33,789 nt of DNA, taken from NCBI GenBank assembly GCA_003151775.1, contig PLYK01000137.1, forward strand, positions 1 through 33,789. The letters are read 5' to 3'. The notes under the pieces were generated by a model. That model was given only the letters and a program-made list of their open reading frames with translations. It made no database searches and had not been told where the DNA came from. The position numbers and the translations under genes are program-made. Positions 2,205 to 14,245 of this stretch are shown in pieces (within the stretch, counting starts at the first letter, position 1; every line of letters begins with the position of its first letter). Origin of the DNA: Geobacter sp. Its GTDB lineage: Bacteria; Desulfobacterota; Desulfuromonadia; Geobacterales; Pseudopelobacteraceae.

Positions 2205-3167
2205 CTACTTGATGACGCGCGTGGCATTGCTCAAGACTGTGAAGGGGAGATTAATCCCCAACTCCTGGGCAGCGCGCATGTTGATGATCAGCTCGATACG
2301 GCGGGGGGAGATCAACGAAAGATGGTTCTGCTTGGCGCCTTCCAGAATACGGGTGGCTATGTCGGCAGCCAGGTGCCCCTGCTCTTCGGGATCGATTTCA
2401 AGCGACATGATCGCGCCCTTTTCGGCAGCGCCGGGCATGGTGGCAAGTACCGGGATGTTGCGGGTCTTGGTGCGGGCGATGATCTTGCTGAACTGCCGGG
2501 ACACCAAGCCGCTTTCCGTAGCAAAGACGACGTCGGAATGGTCGAGCAGGGAAGGAAGGGCCGCCTCCAGGGCAGCGGCAGAGGCAACGTTTGCCTCCGT
2601 CACGATCATATCGTAGTGAGGCGCAAATTTCTTGATATCATCAAGCTGCTTCTGCGATCCGGCCTCGCGGGAGTTGTAGACGACGCCGATCCGCCGGTAT
2701 GGCTTGATGTGCTCCCGGCTGTCCTTGAACGTCTTTATCAAGGTAATCAACGGCACCCGCGAACTGACACCGCACATACCCCGCTGCGGCCCGTCGGATA
2801 CGAAGACGTCAACGGACACAACCGGAATCCCGTCTGATTCCTTCATGGCCGTGAACGCAGCCGGCGCCCCGTAGGCCACGATCAAATCCGGGCGGTAGGC
2901 ATTGAACTTTCTGATCGTATTGGACCAGGAGAGCGGATCGGGATTCGGAACCTGCAAAATGATCTCAACATTGGCCGAGGTATAACCCAAAGCGGCCAGG
3001 GACTTGATAAAGGCCTGGTGCGCCTCTCGGTAGCGCGGCTGGTCGCAGCTCATGACGGCGGCGATGACCTTGCCTGCGGCATGGCAATCCGGATGCCGGC
3101 AGCACGCCAGGAAAAGGATCATCAGCACTATGGAGAGAATTCGTTGGCGCATACCATCCACTACCAC
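2205..3167 (-). CDS. ABC transporter substrate-binding protein of the PF04392 type
   Basis: Signal peptide and Rossmann-like fold: FIKSLAALGYTSANVEI..., RPDLIVAYGAPAAFTAMK, RRIGVVYNSREAGS, RRIELIINMRAAQELGINLPFTVLSNATRVIK. Confidence 0.8.
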   Translation of the reverse strand: MVVDGMRQRILSIVLMILFLACCRHPDCHAAGKVIAAVMSCDQPRYREAHQAFIKSLAALGYTSANVEIILQVPNPDPLSWSNTIRKFNAYRPDLIVAYGAPAAFTAMKESDGIPVVSVDVFVSDGPQRGMCGVSSRVPLITLIKTFKDSREHIKPYRRIGVVYNSREAGSQKQLDDIKKFAPHYDMIVTEANVASAAALEAALPSLLDHSDVVFATESGLVSRQFSKIIARTKTRNIPVLATMPGAAEKGAIMSLEIDPEEQGHLAADIATRILEGAKQNHLSLISPRRIELIINMRAAQELGINLPFTVLSNATRVIK

Positions 3168-5254
3168 CGCGAAGTTAACGATAGCATAGTCGTATGGACC
3201 GAGCCGTCGAAGAGCGCATTACCGGAGTTGTAATTTCGGAAACAGTAGTCCATTGAGCAGCCGGCATGTTTGCTAAAGCGCCAATCGGCACGGGCCGTCA
3301 CGCCCGTTTCGACAGCATCCAGCCGGGTAAGGTTGGTGATGCCGGTGGTATCGAAACTTCCCGTCGCGCCCGCTAGGGTAAACGCCTGGACAGGCACGTC
3401 AAACCGGGACCCTGAACGCACCTGCTGGAATCCGAGGGAGATGTCCAGCGGCTCGGCAACGGCATAGGCAATATCGATGCCGTAGACGTGCGCGCTAGAG
3501 CGGTAGTTGGTCGCCGCGAGCGGCATCGGATCGCTGATGATATTGGCAAACAATACCGATTGGTCCGTCACCGTTTCCAGGTATGAATAGTTGGCGGTGA
3601 TGGTCAGGCGCTCCACTGGGCTGAACCACAAGCTCCCATTGGCCGAGTACATGCGGTTTTCTCGCGGCAGGGTGTAGCCGTCAACAGGCGCCGGGACAAC
3701 CGTGGCGTCACTGCTTAGGCTCTGCTCATAGGTGGTTATGAAGCTTGCCGTAGTCCCCCACGCGCCGTTTTTGATGTATGTTACAAACAGTTCGCCCTTG
3801 TGGCTTTCCGATGCCGAGGTCTTCCATTCCGGGTTATCGGTTGTGCAATAGGTGTAGGCGGCGTTCACCCTGAAACCGGGGAACGGCCTCCAGGAGGCAT
3901 TCGCCAGGACTCTGTGGGTCTGACTGTATTCGCTGTGGAGTGCCGCCGGGTCGCCGGGCGTGAGGTCACTGTCGGGCACATTGTCACGGGACAAAAGGAC
4001 GGCTCGGTATTCCAGGCGGTAGGTCACTTGCTGGTTAGGCCGGAACGTGCCGGAAAGGGAAAGGGTATCCTTGACCGTGTCGATACCGGGCTGCACCAGC
4101 AAAAGACCCGGCGTGGCAGTGTAGACGCCGGGAAGCGGGGTCACGGCGGGTATCCGGGAAAAGGCATACGAGACGGTTGGGGGCGATTCCAGCTCGGTCT
4201 GCAGGCGCCGGTATTTAAGGGCGAAAGACAGTTCCTTGAACGGGGTGTACGTCAGGTCTCCCGCCACCGAATGCAGCGTTTGCTCCGGTTTGGAGGAGGG
4301 ACGCGCATCCCCCCGGCCGGCGTCGTTTTCCCTCTTGGTAAGGACATAGGCGGCCGTCCCCACCAGGCCGCCGCTCATGTCGGAGTAAAGCCTGACCGTA
4401 TGGGACGTTACCCGGCTGTCGGAGACGACGTTGGTCGCCTGGTTGCCTGGAGTGATCGCTCCGCCGCCGGTTACGACGAAAGGATAGCGGATATCCGGGG
4501 CCTGGTTTGAAAAATCGCGGATACGGAATCCATAGGCGATGTCGAAGAATCCCAGATGGGCGTCGGCGCCGACGCTTCCCTCCCGCGTGACTTGGTCAAC
4601 CTGCCGGTTGAGGGAGACGATCCTGTTCTGCGGGTCGCCAAAGTTGTAGTCGCCAAAACGGAGCTGGTCGGTTCCCCGGCGGCTCAGTTCCCAGTACCCA
4701 AGGTTGATGTGGATGGGATTGTTGCCCAGCTTGATGCGGTTCTCCACCTGGGTAATGCCGGTGCGAACGCCGTAGCCGTCCGCGGGGGCGGGCGATTGCG
4801 TCGTTGCGTATTGGCCGGTGGATGACTGGGGAAGCTGTTCCGTGAGCAGGTTGTGCCAGAGGGCCTCGCTTTCCAGGTGCAGACGATAGTATCCGCCATA
4901 GTCGAAAAAAAGATTGGCTTTATAATCGTCCTCGTGGAGCATGAGGGCTTCTCCCGACAACTTGATGCTGGAGTCGAGCGTACCGGCGGAGAGCCCCCCC
5001 GTTACGCCGGATTTCAGGCGCGCGTAGGGCGCAGCGGCAGCGGTTGCACCGTCAGGCGTGATAAACCGGTATCCTGCCTGGGCATACGCAAAACGATAGG
5101 CTTCGACTTCCTGTTCCGTCTGCGCTTCATGCCTTTCTACACCGGCATCCGGGATGACGCCGTCGGCGGCAAGGGCCGGCGCCTCCATGGACATCAGGCC
5201 CAAGCAGACAACCAGGGGCACAAACAGCATTCTTTGGCGAGAGCGGCTCGGCAT
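3161..5254 (-). CDS. MtrB/PioB-like outer-membrane beta-barrel protein (putative decaheme-associated porin)
   Basis: 697 aa, signal peptide, alternating beta-strand pattern, C-terminal aromatic (LTSRW); immediately downstream of the decaheme cytochrome gene. Confidence 0.75.
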   Translation of the reverse strand: MPSRSRQRMLFVPLVVCLGLMSMEAPALAADGVIPDAGVERHEAQTEQEVEAYRFAYAQAGYRFITPDGATAAAAPYARLKSGVTGGLSAGTLDSSIKLSGEALMLHEDDYKANLFFDYGGYYRLHLESEALWHNLLTEQLPQSSTGQYATTQSPAPADGYGVRTGITQVENRIKLGNNPIHINLGYWELSRRGTDQLRFGDYNFGDPQNRIVSLNRQVDQVTREGSVGADAHLGFFDIAYGFRIRDFSNQAPDIRYPFVVTGGGAITPGNQATNVVSDSRVTSHTVRLYSDMSGGLVGTAAYVLTKRENDAGRGDARPSSKPEQTLHSVAGDLTYTPFKELSFALKYRRLQTELESPPTVSYAFSRIPAVTPLPGVYTATPGLLLVQPGIDTVKDTLSLSGTFRPNQQVTYRLEYRAVLLSRDNVPDSDLTPGDPAALHSEYSQTHRVLANASWRPFPGFRVNAAYTYCTTDNPEWKTSASESHKGELFVTYIKNGAWGTTASFITTYEQSLSSDATVVPAPVDGYTLPRENRMYSANGSLWFSPVERLTITANYSYLETVTDQSVLFANIISDPMPLAATNYRSSAHVYGIDIAYAVAEPLDISLGFQQVRSGSRFDVPVQAFTLAGATGSFDTTGITNLTRLDAVETGVTARADWRFSKHAGCSMDYCFRNYNSGNALFDGSVHTTMLSLTSRW

Positions 5255-5257
5255 GGC

Positions 5258-6301
5258 TTACTTCCTCAACGTCCCGTACCCGCCATTGTCGGGGGTATCG
5301 GAGCCGTGGATAGCGGAATGACAGTCGGTGCACCGGTTGGAAAAGAGCGACTTTATGGATGCGTCGCCGCTTATTGTACTGCGGTGCCCCGGATTGTGGC
5401 ACTGAATGCAGAGAAACGGCATGGCCGCCGAGAGCAGCCTTCGATTGACCGAACCGTGCGGCATGTGGCAGTTGGTGCAGGTTTCTGTGACGTCGCCGTG
5501 CTCGTAGACGAAAGGCCCGCTTTTCTCCATGTGGCAGCGGGTGCAGAGGTCGCGGAGCGTGCTCCCTCTCAACTGCTTGGGCTGGCTTGAACCGTGGGGG
5601 TCATGGCAGTCGAAACAGTCCATCTTCTTTTCCCGCACCGGGTGATGGGCAAACAGGCTGAATTGGGCCTTGACGTCGGGATGGCAGCCGTAGCAGAGTA
5701 CAGCCATTTTATCGCGGCTGACCTTCTGCTGCGGCCCTTCGTGCAACGTGTGGCAGGTGAAGCAGCTCAAGTCGTTAAGGGCGTGGGTACTGGAATGCCA
5801 GTAGGCCAGGGCAGGGGTCGAGGCCGCGGAGTGGCACTTCAGGCAGATCAACGACTGGGCCTGGGGCGGGAGATTCTTCAGGTCGAGCAGCGTGGAGACG
5901 TCACATTTGTCGCCCTTTTCGCCATAAAGTCTTTTTGTTTCCTCGATGTTGGCGATTGCCAGGCTTCCCGGCCCATGGCAGGACTCGCAGTTGACCAGCG
6001 GCAAGCCGGTTTCAGGCTTGATCTGTTCGCCGTGCACGCTCCGCTTGAAGTCGCTGGTGATCCTGTCATGCTTGTGGCACTTGGCGACACAGTTATCCGT
6101 CCCCACGTAGTCGGCATCCAGGCGGCCGACAATCATCTTTTCATACTCGGCAACCGGCAGAAGCGGATGCGACTGCTTGATCCCGGCGCATCCGGCGAGA
6201 AGCACCGCCACGACGATCATTGCGGCCCATATACTACCCGGAAGCACAATGGCTCTGCCACAGCGTTTATTCATCACAATCTCCTTCAGAACTCCGGGCA
6301 A
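5258..6301 (-). CDS. DmsE/MtrA-like multiheme c-type cytochrome (nine CXXCH plus one CX3CH)
   Basis: Sites read directly: CVAKCH, CESCH, CLKCH, CFTCH, CYGCH, CFDCH, CTRCH, CTNCH, CIQCH, CTDCH; N-terminal signal/lipobox-like VVAVLLAGC. Confidence 0.9.
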   Translation of the reverse strand: MPGVLKEIVMNKRCGRAIVLPGSIWAAMIVVAVLLAGCAGIKQSHPLLPVAEYEKMIVGRLDADYVGTDNCVAKCHKHDRITSDFKRSVHGEQIKPETGLPLVNCESCHGPGSLAIANIEETKRLYGEKGDKCDVSTLLDLKNLPPQAQSLICLKCHSAASTPALAYWHSSTHALNDLSCFTCHTLHEGPQQKVSRDKMAVLCYGCHPDVKAQFSLFAHHPVREKKMDCFDCHDPHGSSQPKQLRGSTLRDLCTRCHMEKSGPFVYEHGDVTETCTNCHMPHGSVNRRLLSAAMPFLCIQCHNPGHRSTISGDASIKSLFSNRCTDCHSAIHGSDTPDNGGYGTLRK

Positions 6302-8393: not shown

Positions 8394-9241
8394 CTGGTCT
8401 CCTGCTCCCTCACGGGAAAGGTATCTATGCCGGCATGCACGCCGATCATCTTGTAGATCTGCACCTCGTCCCACGGCTCGTCCAGAACGCCGTCGTGGAT
8501 GGCCCAGCTTCGCCCGCGCACGGTGCGCTCCTGACCTGGCATGCGGAAGGGGGTGGAACCGTCCAGCCGTGTATGATAACGGCCGCCCGGCAGAAATTCC
8601 CGGTCGATCTCCATCATCAGGCGCTTGCCGCGCAGGTAGTCGAAGCCGTACCTCTCATAGCGGATGGCGTTATCGTAGCTCAACGGTTCGGCCACGATCA
8701 TCTCCATCCCCAGGGCGTCGGTAAATCGCTCCAGGAGCGGGAAAAACTCGACGAACAGGCGCAATCCGTGACGGGTCTGGTTGGGAAACAGGCCATCCTG
8801 CATGGCGCGCAGTTCTTCGGGCAGGTTGCGCCCGCGGGAGGCAAACCAGTTCCTTCTGCCGTTTTCGTCCACGTCCACATCGTACCGGGGCGCAGCCGGA
8901 TCGCAGATGATGCAGAAGGAAAGCTCCATCTGGAGGTACTGGGTATCGGCCAGTTCGAGAAAGAAGACCGTATCGGCATCATCCGGCCGGGCGCGGACCT
9001 CGATACGCAGAAACGCAAGCCCGGAGGGCGCGATGATTCTGGTGAGGCGTTCCCCTGCCGCGTTATGGAGCCCATCGGCGGCCAGCCCCGCCAGTTGGCG
9101 CAGGCGCAGCGGCACGAGCGAAACGTACAGCGCCTCTTTTTCCCCGTCATCCAGCCGGTTGATGGCCATAAGAGATCGCAGCGGCCGGCCGGCTGCATCA
9201 AGCAACTGTCTATTTCCCGGAAGTCTTGCCATAGGTTCCAA
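8390..9241 (-). CDS. Conserved-looking hypothetical protein
   Basis: 283 aa ORF, coupled to the downstream TPR gene and overlapping the end of the upstream deacetylase gene; no family recognised. Confidence 0.65.
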   Translation of the reverse strand: MEPMARLPGNRQLLDAAGRPLRSLMAINRLDDGEKEALYVSLVPLRLRQLAGLAADGLHNAAGERLTRIIAPSGLAFLRIEVRARPDDADTVFFLELADTQYLQMELSFCIICDPAAPRYDVDVDENGRRNWFASRGRNLPEELRAMQDGLFPNQTRHGLRLFVEFFPLLERFTDALGMEMIVAEPLSYDNAIRYERYGFDYLRGKRLMMEIDREFLPGGRYHTRLDGSTPFRMPGQERTVRGRSWAIHDGVLDEPWDEVQIYKMIGVHAGIDTFPVREQETR

Positions 9242-10370
9242 CTATACCGGGAAAGATGGCCGACCTGATCCGCGCAATACTCTTTTCCACAGCATCGAGG
9301 GCCTGGTTGCGCTCATAATCCTCGGACCAGTGCATGGCATCCAGCAAGGCCCGGTGGGGGTAGCCCAGCGGCTCGATCTTTTTGACAAAGGCAGCCGGCA
9401 GGCGGGGGTTGAGTTCGACGCCGTTCATAACCGCCCAGGCGATGGTCCAGGCACGGGCCGTGTTCATCAGGTCGTATCCGCCGCCACCCAGCGCAATCCA
9501 GGGGATCTTGAGCGCCTTGAGCTTGCGCATGATATAGCCGTAGCTGTGGGTCGTAATCTCAAGCCTGGTCAGCGGGTCGGTGCGAAAGGAGTCGGCGCCG
9601 ATCTGGGTGACGATGACATCCGGATCATAGGCCGCTATGAGCGGATAAGCCACTTCATCGAAGGCCTTCATGTAGAGGGCGTCGTCGGTGTGGGCAATCA
9701 GCGGCACGTTAACCGAATAGCCCCGGCCCCTGCCATGACCTGTTTCGTTCTCAAAGCCGGTTCCGGGAAAGAAATAGATGCCGCTTTCGTGCAGCGAGAT
9801 GGTCAGGACCCGGTCGCTGTCATAGAAACCTTCCTGCACCCCGTCGCCGTGGTGGGCGTCGATATCCAGATAGACAACCCGACGTCCCCGCGCCACCAGC
9901 CATTTGATGGCAAGTACGGCATCGTTGACGTAGGAAAACCCCGAGGCCCTGGCCCGATGGGCATGGTGCCAGCCGCCGGCCAGGTTGAAGGCGACATCGA
10001 ACCCCTCCTCTTCCACCAGGCGGGCCGCCTCGAAGGTCGCCCCGGCTCCCAGTGCCGCGCAATCGTACAGCCCTTTGAAAACGGGACAGTCGGCATCGCC
10101 CAGGCCAAAACGGAAGTCGGCCCGGGGTTCGTCGGAGGTGCTGAACTCCTTGAGACGCGCCACATATTCAGGGGCATGAAAGCTCAGCACAAGTTCGTCG
10201 TCGATCTGGCGGCAGTCGCGGATCTCCATCCCCGGCAGCTTCAAAAGCCCGTAAGCCTCCATCAGGTCCAGCACGAGACGATAGCGTTGTAACTTGAACG
10301 GATGGTCATCTCCGTAGCTGAAATTTCCGAACAAGGGCGAATATATCAGGGCGGTGCGTCTGGCCGGCAC
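9210..10370 (-). CDS. Histone deacetylase/AcuC-like family protein
   Basis: VVYLDIDAHHGDGVQEGFYDSDRVLTISLHESGIYFFPGTG...; PDVIVTQIGADSFRTDPLTRLEIT; ALGGGGYDL. Confidence 0.92.
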   Translation of the reverse strand: MPARRTALIYSPLFGNFSYGDDHPFKLQRYRLVLDLMEAYGLLKLPGMEIRDCRQIDDELVLSFHAPEYVARLKEFSTSDEPRADFRFGLGDADCPVFKGLYDCAALGAGATFEAARLVEEEGFDVAFNLAGGWHHAHRARASGFSYVNDAVLAIKWLVARGRRVVYLDIDAHHGDGVQEGFYDSDRVLTISLHESGIYFFPGTGFENETGHGRGRGYSVNVPLIAHTDDALYMKAFDEVAYPLIAAYDPDVIVTQIGADSFRTDPLTRLEITTHSYGYIMRKLKALKIPWIALGGGGYDLMNTARAWTIAWAVMNGVELNPRLPAAFVKKIEPLGYPHRALLDAMHWSEDYERNQALDAVEKSIARIRSAIFPGIVGTYGKTSGK

Positions 10371-10505: not shown

Positions 10506-11363
10506 TCAGGTGAGCAGACGGGAGGTGAGGCGCTGAATGCATTGGGAGAGGTCAGGGTCGCTGATCATCTTCAGGGCCTTATGGACCGGCAGCACCGCAC
10601 GCTTCCGCCAATCCATCTCCGGCCATTTTTTCAGTACGGTCGTGACCTTCAGCGGATAGATATAGAGCGTCTTCTCCCCCTTGCGGCGGCAGAGCACGCG
10701 GAATCCGGGGAGACAACTCCCGATGGTCCCGGCCTCCTCCATGGCCTCCATGACGGCCACATCCTGCCGGGACATGTCCGGCTCCGGCTGCCCCTTGGGG
10801 ATGATCCAGCGGGTCTGGGCGGTGTTGGTCACGATCACGAGGTGCAGACTCCCCCCGCGAAACAGGAAGGGGAGCGCCCCGATCTGGTACTCCAGGGCCG
10901 GCCCTTCGGGAATCCCGTGGATGGCGAGGGAGATGTTCTTGTAGGCCTCCACCTCCGTGATCTCCTGCCCCAGATAGTCCGGCTTTTCGAAGCGTTCGCT
11001 TTCCTCGACCGAAGGAAACTCCACCTCGGCGACGAGCAGCGGTTCCAGGTCCCCCAGATAGCGGTCCACCTCCACCCGGCACGAACCGTGATCCACCAGC
11101 GAGCGGACCTTTTCCAGCCGCCGCCCCTCGGTGGACGGCCACAGCGCGTGAAACTGCCGGGGCGAGATCTCGACCTCGGTCTCCCGCCGCATGAGCCCGG
11201 CTCCCTCCTTGACGGTGAGAAAGTAATTGTCCCCGTACTGCCGGATGCGCACCTCCAGGTGCTCGTCGTGGGCCAGGTACCCCTGCAGGATCGGCGTCCC
11301 GCCCTGCATTCCGTCAGGCAGGGACTTCACCAGGAATTTCCGTTCGATCTCAAACATGGTCAT
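10506..11363 (-). CDS. CYTH (triphosphate tunnel metalloenzyme) - Nudix fusion protein
   Basis: N-terminal MFEIERKFLV (ExExK) CYTH signature, C-terminal WIIPKGQPEPDMSRQDVAVMEAMEEAG Nudix-like box; ATGA overlap with ParA stop supports the start at 11363. Confidence 0.85.
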   Translation of the reverse strand: MTMFEIERKFLVKSLPDGMQGGTPILQGYLAHDEHLEVRIRQYGDNYFLTVKEGAGLMRRETEVEISPRQFHALWPSTEGRRLEKVRSLVDHGSCRVEVDRYLGDLEPLLVAEVEFPSVEESERFEKPDYLGQEITEVEAYKNISLAIHGIPEGPALEYQIGALPFLFRGGSLHLVIVTNTAQTRWIIPKGQPEPDMSRQDVAVMEAMEEAGTIGSCLPGFRVLCRRKGEKTLYIYPLKVTTVLKKWPEMDWRKRAVLPVHKALKMISDPDLSQCIQRLTSRLLT

Positions 11364-12106
11364 GGACCCGCCAGGCAAAGGATCTCGTCGCACAGCGCGC
11401 GGTAGGCCATCGCCGCCGTGCTGGCGCGGGAATAGGCCAAAAGCGGCATCCTGTGCAAGCCCATCTTTTCCACGTCCGCGGAAAACGGGATCACTGTCTT
11501 CAGGAAACCCGGATACGCAGCCGGAAGGTCGTCCATGATCTCCCGGTGCATCCTGTTCCGCTTCTGGACCATGGAGAAAAACGGGCGGAGCATCCCGCCG
11601 GGAAGGTCCTCGTCCCGGAAGAAACCGGCCAGTTGCTCCAAGGTCCTCCGCGAAAGCACAGTCGGAATGACCGGCACCAGAATCGCATCCGATGCCCGGA
11701 ACACGTTTTCCGAGAGGAGCGTGATGTTCGGCGGGCAGTCCATGAGGATCACGTCGTAATCGGGCTTGAATTCTTCCAGCACCTTCCTGAGTTGCCTGCG
11801 GCGCTTGGCCATGCCGTCGAGCAGGATGTCGAAGTGCCGGTAGCCGAGATTGGAGGGGATGATGTCGAGCCCGGGAAAGTCGGACTCCCGGATGTTTCTG
11901 CGGAGCCCCTCCGCCAAGGAGCCCGCGTCGCGCATGCGGAACTTCTCAGCGTTGGCCACGCGGAAATAAAAGGTGGCAGCCCCCTGGGGGTCCAGGTCCA
12001 GGAGAAGGGTCCGGCGCCCGGCCTCGCGAAGCGCGAACGCCAGATTGACCGCAAGGGCCGTCTTCCCCACCCCGCCCTTGATGCTGTAAGAAGAGAGTAT
12101 TTTCAT
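11360..12106 (-). CDS. ParA/MinD/Soj-family ATPase
   Basis: Deviant Walker A MKILSSYSIKGGVGKTALAVNLA, Walker A' LLLDLDPQGAATF, DVILMDCPP; start at 12106 preferred over 12163. Confidence 0.9.
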   Translation of the reverse strand: MKILSSYSIKGGVGKTALAVNLAFALREAGRRTLLLDLDPQGAATFYFRVANAEKFRMRDAGSLAEGLRRNIRESDFPGLDIIPSNLGYRHFDILLDGMAKRRRQLRKVLEEFKPDYDVILMDCPPNITLLSENVFRASDAILVPVIPTVLSRRTLEQLAGFFRDEDLPGGMLRPFFSMVQKRNRMHREIMDDLPAAYPGFLKTVIPFSADVEKMGLHRMPLLAYSRASTAAMAYRALCDEILCLAGP

Positions 12107-12122
12107 TGTCGTTTTGACCTTT

Positions 12123-13679
12123 TCATTTACGTTGCGGGTGTGGAACCGGCAGCTTGAAGGCATGCTTGAAGGCTTGTGCCGTCGAGCCGCCGCAGAACCC
12201 TTCCAGCTCTTCGTCGATAAGGCTGCGCGCCTGTTGCTGCCGGCGGTAGAGGACGGCGACGAGCCCCCCCACCCCCAGGGCGACCCCGGACCCGGACCGT
12301 TTCCGCTCCCAATAGTTCATCAGGGATCTCTGCTGCACCAAGGCATCGTTGAACTCGCCAAGCCGGTTTTGCAGCCGGCGCAGCAACCTCAGCATCGCCG
12401 ATCCCTCTTCCTTGGGAATGAGTTCGGCGAAGAACTCCATGAGATAGCGCAATTTCTTGCATTCGATGCGGAGCCGGTGCACCGCCTCATCCGGCGTCTC
12501 GGCCCCGATCCCCGCAGCGATCCCGCGGATCTTCAGGTACCGTTTGTAGATGCGGCGGAAGACCAGCGGACCCACCTGGAGACCGGCAGCCGGCGAAGGC
12601 TCGTGGGGGGTCTCCCCGGAAAAATACTCCTCCACCTCCCGGAGATGCCGGCGGGTGGACGCTGCGCGCATCTTCGAGATTGCCCGCCGCACCTCCCGTT
12701 CCCGCTCCGCCGAAAAATCCTCGAACATCCCGAAAAGGGCCGGACGGAGTACCAAAGGCAGCAGCCCCAGATATTCCTCCCGCGCCAAGAGATACACATC
12801 CAGGTCGCGCAGCCGGTTGGTCTGCCGGGCGAGATCGACTAAGATCTTGCGCATGCGCCGGGTCTCCTCGGCCGGATATACGTCCTTCACCAGGCTCAGC
12901 AACGACCGCACCTTCCGCAGGCAGATCCGGTAATCGTGGAGGAATTCCGTATCGAAGTCGTTCACAATCCCCGGCACGTTGCGCTCGGCGATCTCCAGGA
13001 TCGCGAGCACGATCCGCCCGACGGCCTCGCGGGCCGGCGTATCGGTTTCCAGGGCAAAGACGGGCCGCAGGGTGTACCTCCGGGGCACGCGTCCGGCGTG
13101 CCGCAGCAACACCTCCACAGGGCCGTCCCCGGACGTCCGCGCGCCGCGCCGGACGAGGTGCTCCACCACCCGTGCGGCCTCTGCCTCGTAGCCTAAGAGC
13201 GGCATCACCCGGCAGGAATGGAACAGATCCCCATCCCCCCGCTTCCCCGGGGAAACAGAAGCCCATTCAAGCCGGCACACGATCTTCCCCGTCCCATTGC
13301 GCACATCGCACCGGCGCAGGCGAAAGATCCCCTCCGCCACCGGCGCGAGCCCTCTCAGCCCGAGCATCCCCTCCAGCCTTGACCGCATCGCCCCGGTCTC
13401 AAAGTCCCTCCAGAACCGCTGCCCGGTCCCGGCACGTTCCTCGCACAGCACCGCCCCCACCCAGCCCCCCTCGCGGGCGCACAGGCGATACACCCCGCCG
13501 GAGCTGTAAAGGACGTGCCCGCCGAACCACAGGCCCCACTCGAACGTATCCCAGAACGCCAGGGCCTGCGATTCCTGCGGGTGGATATCCACATCCCATT
13601 CCTCCCGCAGGCGCTCCGGCCCGAGCTCGCCGGGGAGCGTCAAACGAACAGATTCCTTGCCGTGCACCCCACCCCCCAC
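12123..13679 (-). CDS. CHAD domain protein with degenerate N-terminal CYTH-like region
   Basis: CHAD repeats: FLHDYRICLRKVRSLLSLVKDVYP and AVHRLRIECKKLRYLMEFFAELIPKEE...LQNRLGEFNDA; GTG start. Confidence 0.85.
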   Translation of the reverse strand: MGGGVHGKESVRLTLPGELGPERLREEWDVDIHPQESQALAFWDTFEWGLWFGGHVLYSSGGVYRLCAREGGWVGAVLCEERAGTGQRFWRDFETGAMRSRLEGMLGLRGLAPVAEGIFRLRRCDVRNGTGKIVCRLEWASVSPGKRGDGDLFHSCRVMPLLGYEAEAARVVEHLVRRGARTSGDGPVEVLLRHAGRVPRRYTLRPVFALETDTPAREAVGRIVLAILEIAERNVPGIVNDFDTEFLHDYRICLRKVRSLLSLVKDVYPAEETRRMRKILVDLARQTNRLRDLDVYLLAREEYLGLLPLVLRPALFGMFEDFSAEREREVRRAISKMRAASTRRHLREVEEYFSGETPHEPSPAAGLQVGPLVFRRIYKRYLKIRGIAAGIGAETPDEAVHRLRIECKKLRYLMEFFAELIPKEEGSAMLRLLRRLQNRLGEFNDALVQQRSLMNYWERKRSGSGVALGVGGLVAVLYRRQQQARSLIDEELEGFCGGSTAQAFKHAFKLPVPHPQRK

Positions 13680-13822: not shown

Positions 13823-14245
13823 TCAGGGCTTCTTGAGTGGCGCCTTGGCGCTCTCGGGCGGATTCTTGCCCAGCTTTTCCTCTACCGCCGACACGATGTA
13901 TTCATTCATACTGACGCCAGACTCGGCAGCCTCTTTTTTAACGGTCTTGCGCACCGATTTTTTCATGCTCACGAGGAACTTGGTCAGCTTGTCGTCCTTC
14001 GGGGCCTTTGGAACCTTTGGAGCCTTCGGTGCTTTCTCGGCTTTCGGAGCTTTCGCAGCCTTGGGGGCCTTCGGTTCGGCTACCTTCTTGTCGCTTTTTT
14101 CGGGCTTTGTTTTTTTTACCTTGGGCGCTGCCGCAGCCTCATCGGCCTTTTTGCTTTTTTTCTTTTTCTTCGCTGCGGCGCCCTTGTCCATTACGCGCTC
14201 TTCAGCAGGTTTCATTACTGCGGATTTCGGTTTTTCTTCTTTCAT
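13823..14245 (-). CDS. Lys/Ala/Pro-rich histone H1-like protein with C-terminal ribbon-helix-helix-like domain
   Basis: KAPKAAKAPKAEKAPKAPKVPKAPK low-complexity tract followed by KFLVSMKKSVRKTVKKEAAESGVSMNEYIVSAVEEKLGK; RBS AAAAGGAGAGGACC before ATG at 14245. Confidence 0.75.
   Translation of the reverse strand: MKEEKPKSAVMKPAEERVMDKGAAAKKKKKSKKADEAAAAPKVKKTKPEKSDKKVAEPKAPKAAKAPKAEKAPKAPKVPKAPKDDKLTKFLVSMKKSVRKTVKKEAAESGVSMNEYIVSAVEEKLGKNPPESAKAPLKKP

Follow-up and report, generated by a model that had tools for sequence, protein, structure and literature searches.

Results

The window analyzed here is a 33,789-nucleotide stretch of a Geobacter sp. contig (PLYK01000137.1). It contains an operon of three minus-strand genes encoding a CHAD protein, a ParA/MinD-type ATPase, and a CYTH-Nudix fusion protein, for which an earlier note on this DNA had proposed a role in positioning inorganic polyphosphate (polyP) granules. 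The CHAD gene occupies positions 12123 to 13679 and encodes 518 amino acids (aa) from the first GTG, or 514 aa from the GTG at 13667, which alignment with relatives marks as the likelier start. The ParA gene (positions 11360 to 12106; 248 aa, ATG start) begins 16 bp past the CHAD stop codon, and the ATG of the CYTH-Nudix gene (positions 10506 to 11363; 285 aa) shares 4 bases with the ParA stop codon (ATGA). The three genes, the gap, and the overlap are thus as the earlier note had described them. Its gene list is extended here by two features that had gone unmentioned: a gene for a Lys-rich ribbon-helix-helix (RHH) protein directly upstream of the CHAD gene (positions 13823 to 14245, minus strand; 140 aa) and an additional N-terminal domain in the CHAD protein. 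Two PPK1 genes are present in the window genome, both on other contigs.

The CHAD domain spans residues ~211 to 505 and is of the long form (PF05235; E value of 2.7e-44; 152 bits versus a cut-off of 25.6). The protein matches PDB entry 6qv7 with an E value of 2.1e-53, and its AlphaFold2 model is a confident two-domain structure with a predicted local distance difference test (pLDDT) score of 91.3. In a Foldseek comparison with this model, the C-terminal 300 residues match the complex of CtCHAD with polyP (6qva; E value of 7.8e-18; template modeling score of 0.93 by target). CtCHAD is the Chlorobium tepidum protein (Q8KE09; PDB 6qv7 and 6qva) of which residues 207 to 522 were crystallized with bound polyphosphate. 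This crystal comes from the same long protein type as the window CHAD, and Chlorobiaceae relatives of CtCHAD adjoin ParA (locus L184), a linkage that is not discussed in the available text of the structure paper. The C. tepidum homologue is a non-enzymatic polyP binder, and mutating H253, R256, R260, R296, R418, or Y419 in its central cavity weakens polyP binding. The counterparts of these six residues in the window protein (H248, R251, R255, R291, R411, and Y412) are all identical and are conserved in CHAD alignments. Based on this residue identity with CtCHAD, the window CHAD domain is predicted to bind the polyP granule.

Residues ~8 to 200 of the same protein form a degenerate CYTH/triphosphate-tunnel fold in the AlphaFold2 model, and the Foldseek matches of the N-terminal 200 residues are YgiF, thiamine triphosphatase, and TTM3. 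The catalytic ExExK motif is absent from this domain in the alignment, and no Pfam CYTH match is listed for it among 25 members. It is therefore at most a non-catalytic CYTH relative. The order of the two folds is that of YgiF-type CYTH-CHAD proteins, but the CYTH domain of YgiF is an active polyphosphatase, whereas the CYTH-like domain of the window CHAD lacks ExExK.

The presence of this pseudo-CYTH domain tracks the presence of ParA. With an open frame of at least 448 codons as a length proxy for the domain, the long form is found across 277 class genomes in 46 of 46 ParA-linked CHADs and in 5 of 104 that are unlinked (Fisher P of 2e-33, a value that ignores shared ancestry and is thus overstated). 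Of the five unlinked long CHADs, three lie in clusters from which ParA has apparently been lost, another stands at the end of a contig, and the last is a fusion with SixA. When the domain is sought with its own profile, it is detected in 101 of 106 linked CHADs, and three of the five without it are cut by a contig end. The domain is absent from the CHADs of orthologous ppk1 clusters that have no ParA (L104 to L106). Because the N-terminal domain tracks ParA in this way, it is the best candidate for the ParA-binding part of the protein. The earlier proposal that CHAD acts as the granule adaptor is consistent with these results, with the amendment that the putative adaptor is a two-domain protein whose pseudo-CYTH half goes with ParA.

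The window ParA is an AAA_31 ATPase (E value of 2.3e-34) with a deviant Walker A motif, KGGVGKT, that includes the signature Lys, and with the Walker B Asp and the catalytic Asp. Residues K10, K15, T16, D37, D39, and D123 are invariant over 21 aligned members, so by its sequence the ATPase is predicted to be catalytically canonical; R183 and, for the most part, K184 are conserved in the same alignment. Its closest solved relatives are Soj/ParA proteins, with McdA a weaker match. The alignment reveals no C-terminal amphipathic helix for membrane targeting of the MinD type, as the protein stops immediately after its final conserved segment. No ParB gene lies near the window ParA, and the only ParB_N domain detected in the assembly (2.95 Mb, 84% complete) adjoins another ParA, on contig C79, which leaves the window ParA without a recognizable ParB. 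A search of the window for parS-like sites, allowing up to 3 mismatches, gave none, and no such site stands beside the chromosomal parA. The earlier note had reported neither ParB nor parS for this ParA, and had held that finding a ParB partner for it elsewhere would refute the interpretation; within this incomplete assembly the outcome favors the note, as the detected ParB pairs with a different ParA.

The CHAD-ParA neighborhood extends well beyond this strain, a point on which the earlier note had made its interpretation depend. In a set of 57 genomes comprising the window's own and its relatives, there are nine further ParAs with 78 to 96% identity to the window's, and the order CHAD-ParA-CYTH-Nudix is kept at eight of them. 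Among the 277 class genomes, CHAD is directly upstream on the same strand in 46 of the 68 best ParA matches (E values up to 1e-45). When only ParAs at least 47% identical to the window's are counted, 46 of 49 stand directly behind a CHAD gene, and for one of the three exceptions the gene start is only 186 bases away from the end of its contig. A ParA profile was also run against 84,980 species genomes, and the best 80 loci were considered; CHAD is directly upstream at 58 of these, and in most cases its stop codon overlaps the start codon of ParA. Among the matches listed, the record titles of CHAD-ParA loci come from at least about ten phyla. The ParA tree takes in, again among the matches listed, Pseudomonadota, Actinomycetota, Acidobacteriota, Chlorobiota, Calditrichota, Planctomycetota, Dormibacterota, and Desulfobacterota-type lineages, and Chloroflexi and Dadabacteria add further record titles. 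Cultured carriers include Sedimenticola selenatireducens, Oceanospirillum sanctuarii, Desulfobacter latus, and Rhodothalassium salexigens. The CHAD-linked label clusters strongly in the ParA tree (13 changes versus 32 in shuffles), in which many inner branches are poorly supported. Adjacency across the class and about ten phyla, in clusters with ppk1, ppx, CYTH, Nudix, and SixA genes, indicates that the pair is no local accident.

Several loci depart from this arrangement. Genome G021 (L006/L078) retains ParA and the Lys-rich RHH gene, its CHAD and CYTH-Nudix genes are gone, and a short CHAD-like 3' remnant apparently stands just before parA. Genome G241 (L077 and L109) has a 60-codon ParA remnant between CHAD and CYTH-Nudix, apparently the result of relocation, and its intact ParA stands near RHH, PhoU, and PPK1 genes. 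An apparent CHAD-ParA gene fusion in G244 (a 703-codon frame, L063) was rejected because the join is a run of Ns at a scaffold gap. ParAs of the same family with ~41% identity to the window's (L012 to L018) do not adjoin CHAD and are treated as a separate lineage. At three of five loci of this lineage that were viewed more widely, PPK1, a short CHAD, and PPX or SixA lie within 20 kb, and the lineage (L099 to L101) is possibly a second granule-related ParA that is not directly adjacent to CHAD. ParA faces a CHAD gene of 324 to 346 aa on the opposite strand in Halomonas (L171 and L173), and adjoins PPK1, with a Lys-rich RHH gene, in Marinobacter (L169). A Bacteroidota clade of the family has no CHAD nearby (L175, L191, L194, L196, L198, and L202); most of its loci keep a protein of ~243 aa directly downstream of ParA, which is a candidate for a different cargo partner.

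The surroundings of the pair are often those of polyP metabolism. At 63 of 106 CHAD-ParA loci (a count that includes one contig twice, as L117/L150), at least one gene for PPK1, PPX, CYTH, Nudix, or SixA is found no more than 8 kb away, and the other 43 have none in that range, although some contigs there are short. The order at L093, for example, is SixA-CYTH-ParA-CHAD-PPK1, with a helix-hairpin-helix (HhH) gene and PPX diverging, and further clusters of polyP enzymes surround the pair at L085, L116, and L079. Apparent Nudix-SixA fusion genes (~290 to 355 aa) adjoin CYTH-ParA-CHAD at L115, L116, and L117.

Among the genomes examined, the CYTH-Nudix fusion is restricted to the window's taxonomic order; in other lineages its two halves are encoded by separate genes or are absent. 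Therefore, of the module that the earlier note had proposed, the CHAD-ParA core holds, and the fusion drops out as a general part; CYTH-Nudix is probably an optional turnover enzyme. Its CYTH half (PF01928; E value of 5.2e-6) resembles NE1496/NeuTTM (PDB 2fbl/3typ; E value of 5.6e-35), the inorganic triphosphatase of Nitrosomonas europaea (PMC3440374), and keeps the ExExK motif as EIERK. The Nudix half scores 19.8 bits in Pfam, below the cut-off of 21.1, and is DIPP/Ddp1-like by its PDB match to human DIPP1 (E value of about 5e-8). In its Nudix box (Gx5Ex7REUxEExGU) the ExxEE metal ligands are present and the Arg is replaced by Met. Endopolyphosphatase activity is reported for DIPP/Ddp1 enzymes.

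The 140-aa RHH protein encoded upstream of CHAD is 29% Lys, with a net charge of +23 and KAPK-like repeats. Its RHH domain is C-terminal and Arc/HicB-like (Arc E value of 0.0012 and HicB E value of 0.0014, both just below the Pfam cut-off). About half of the loci from the window's order have a Lys-rich RHH gene upstream of CHAD, and two other families of the class have RHH and HhH genes downstream of ParA. In all, 24 of the 106 pairs have a Lys-rich RHH or HhH gene no more than 8 kb away. We regard the RHH protein as a candidate nucleoid-binding accessory. A different protein (~180 aa), with HhH and coiled-coil segments, is encoded beside PPX or a short CHAD at L080, L085, L093, L104, L105, and L108, and recalls the HhH phasin PhaH of PHB granules.

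Discussion

Based on the conserved adjacency of the two genes, the clusters with polyP enzymes, and the lack of a recognizable ParB, we conclude that the CHAD-ParA operon is probably an ATP-driven positioning system for polyP granules. This favors the interpretation offered in the earlier note, with positioning itself predicted from genomes. We also lean, a little less firmly, toward the broader view that CHAD-ParA is a widespread and previously unrecognized ATP-driven system for positioning and inheritance of polyP granules in about ten phyla, in which the pseudo-CYTH domain would be the ParA activator and the CHAD domain the granule holder.

In the mechanism that we propose, the CHAD domain would hold the polyP granule as an adaptor, and the inactive CYTH-like domain, as its co-occurrence with ParA suggests, would recruit ParA and stimulate its ATPase. 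ATP-bound ParA dimers would cover the nucleoid. Turnover of ATP in the immediate vicinity of a granule would then cause it to travel up the ParA gradient. Granules would thereby be spaced out and shared between daughter cells, as carboxysomes are by McdAB. In the window's lineage, CYTH-Nudix could act at the granule by trimming short polyphosphate or similar phosphoanhydrides, and the upstream Lys-rich DNA-binding protein may serve as an additional tether to the nucleoid, similar to AlgP of Pseudomonas.

A number of observations weigh against granule positioning by CHAD-ParA. The C-terminal region of Soj/ParA holds a DNA-binding Arg. This region, where chromosomal ParAs have their DNA-binding Arg/Lys residues, lacks conservation in the window ParA's family, and nucleoid binding is thus not assured. 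Of the best 80 loci in the collection-wide scan, 22 have no same-strand CHAD directly upstream, and within the window's own genus the module is patchy, being present in three of six genomes. The partners can also be separated, as in G021, where ParA has outlived CHAD, and in G241, where the intact ParA is on another contig away from CHAD; three CHADs (L096 to L098) retain the N-terminal domain after loss of ParA. The putative contact between ParA and CHAD is read solely from gene order and domain co-occurrence. Finally, AlgP spaces granules with no known ATPase (PMC9239181).

The same data can be explained in other ways. Instead of positioning completed granules, ParA could be an ATP switch or localizer for polyP enzymes (PPK1, CYTH, Nudix, and PPX) that places or switches their synthesis and turnover complex, much as BcsQ-type ParA relatives are found in cellulose-synthesis operons. 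Such enzymes do stand beside ParA-CHAD at many loci, ParA is beside PPK1 with no same-strand CHAD directly upstream at L168 and L169, and the window ParA scores above the Pfam cut-off with BcsQ models, albeit far below that of NCBIfam. However, the constant partner is CHAD, a non-enzymatic polyP binder, whereas each enzyme is optional, and 43 loci have none of these enzymes within 8 kb, although some contigs are short. We consider an enzyme switch unlikely.

We think it more doubtful still that this ParA segregates DNA and that CHAD couples chromosome or plasmid segregation to polyP status (e.g., in starvation arrest), with granules serving as the signal. The relationship to chromosomal Soj/ParA and the Lys-rich RHH/HhH genes near 24 of the 106 pairs are compatible with this model, and on some plasmids small RHH proteins act as ParA partners. 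But most loci have no RHH or HhH gene, the genome has a separate ParA-ParB pair, the window has no parS-like site, and the neighbor across many phyla is CHAD and not ParB. It would be more surprising yet if the genes were merely cotranscribed for coregulation in phosphate metabolism and formed no physical machine. Gene order by itself cannot prove contact, and separation is tolerated in G021 and G241; nevertheless, adjacency persists across about ten phyla while the surrounding enzymes vary, and the N-terminal domain is tightly linked to ParA.

Granule positioning by CHAD-ParA has its nearest parallel in McdA/McdB, in which a ParA-type ATPase without ParB also works with a cargo-bound adaptor encoded nearby, the nucleoid is likewise the proposed track, and the cargo is not DNA. 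It differs in that the adaptor here consists of CHAD and pseudo-CYTH domains, unrelated in content to McdB, that the proposed cargo is the polyP granule, and that in sequence Soj/ParA is closer than McdA to the window ParA. The ATPase superfamily and its motifs are those of ParABS. The window ParA has no detected ParB or parS as in ParABS, no membrane-targeting helix as in MinD, and a constant neighbor that is CHAD rather than McdB, with McdA itself only a weak match. We class the system as putative ParA-type cargo positioning. AlgP of Pseudomonas aeruginosa (PMC9239181) shares the proposed cargo and has a Lys-rich, histone-H1-like tail, but it acts as a lone tether for which no ATPase is known, whereas the window pairs a ParA ATPase with a CHAD protein. 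The Lys-rich parallel between AlgP and window-type RHH/HhH proteins is suggestive only.

A folD-ppk-parA-CHAD neighborhood was reported in 2019 and 2024 to be conserved in Acidithiobacillus (PMC10892726 and PMC6416229), so that the parA-CHAD pairing itself is on record. In the available text of these reports, ParA is called a chromosome/plasmid partition protein, granule positioning is not proposed, and the spread of parA-CHAD beyond the genus is not considered. We found no published claim of polyP-granule positioning by CHAD-ParA in an open-access library, although an unseen report or preprint is possible. A 2025 review of organelle positioning (PMC13052382) names AlgP as the sole polyP-granule spacer, gives no ATPase, and asks whether positioning of these granules uses energy. 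Because CHAD-ParA combines a ParA with a proven type of polyP-binding protein and occurs in cultured isolates, that question is directly testable. PolyP granules are near-universal bacterial stores, and CHAD-ParA may bear on how they are spaced and inherited. If the proposal is correct, the ParA family gains a further non-DNA cargo and the catalytically dead CYTH-like domain of CHAD proteins gains a role.

Two other features of the window lie outside the operon. A histone-deacetylase-like gene downstream (positions 9210 to 10370) was considered as a part of the module and set aside, as it adjoins the module in the closest genome alone. Positions 5258 to 6301 and 3161 to 5254 encode a multiheme c-type cytochrome and an MtrB/PioB-like porin, possibly an extracellular electron transfer pair, which fit a metal-reducing lifestyle.

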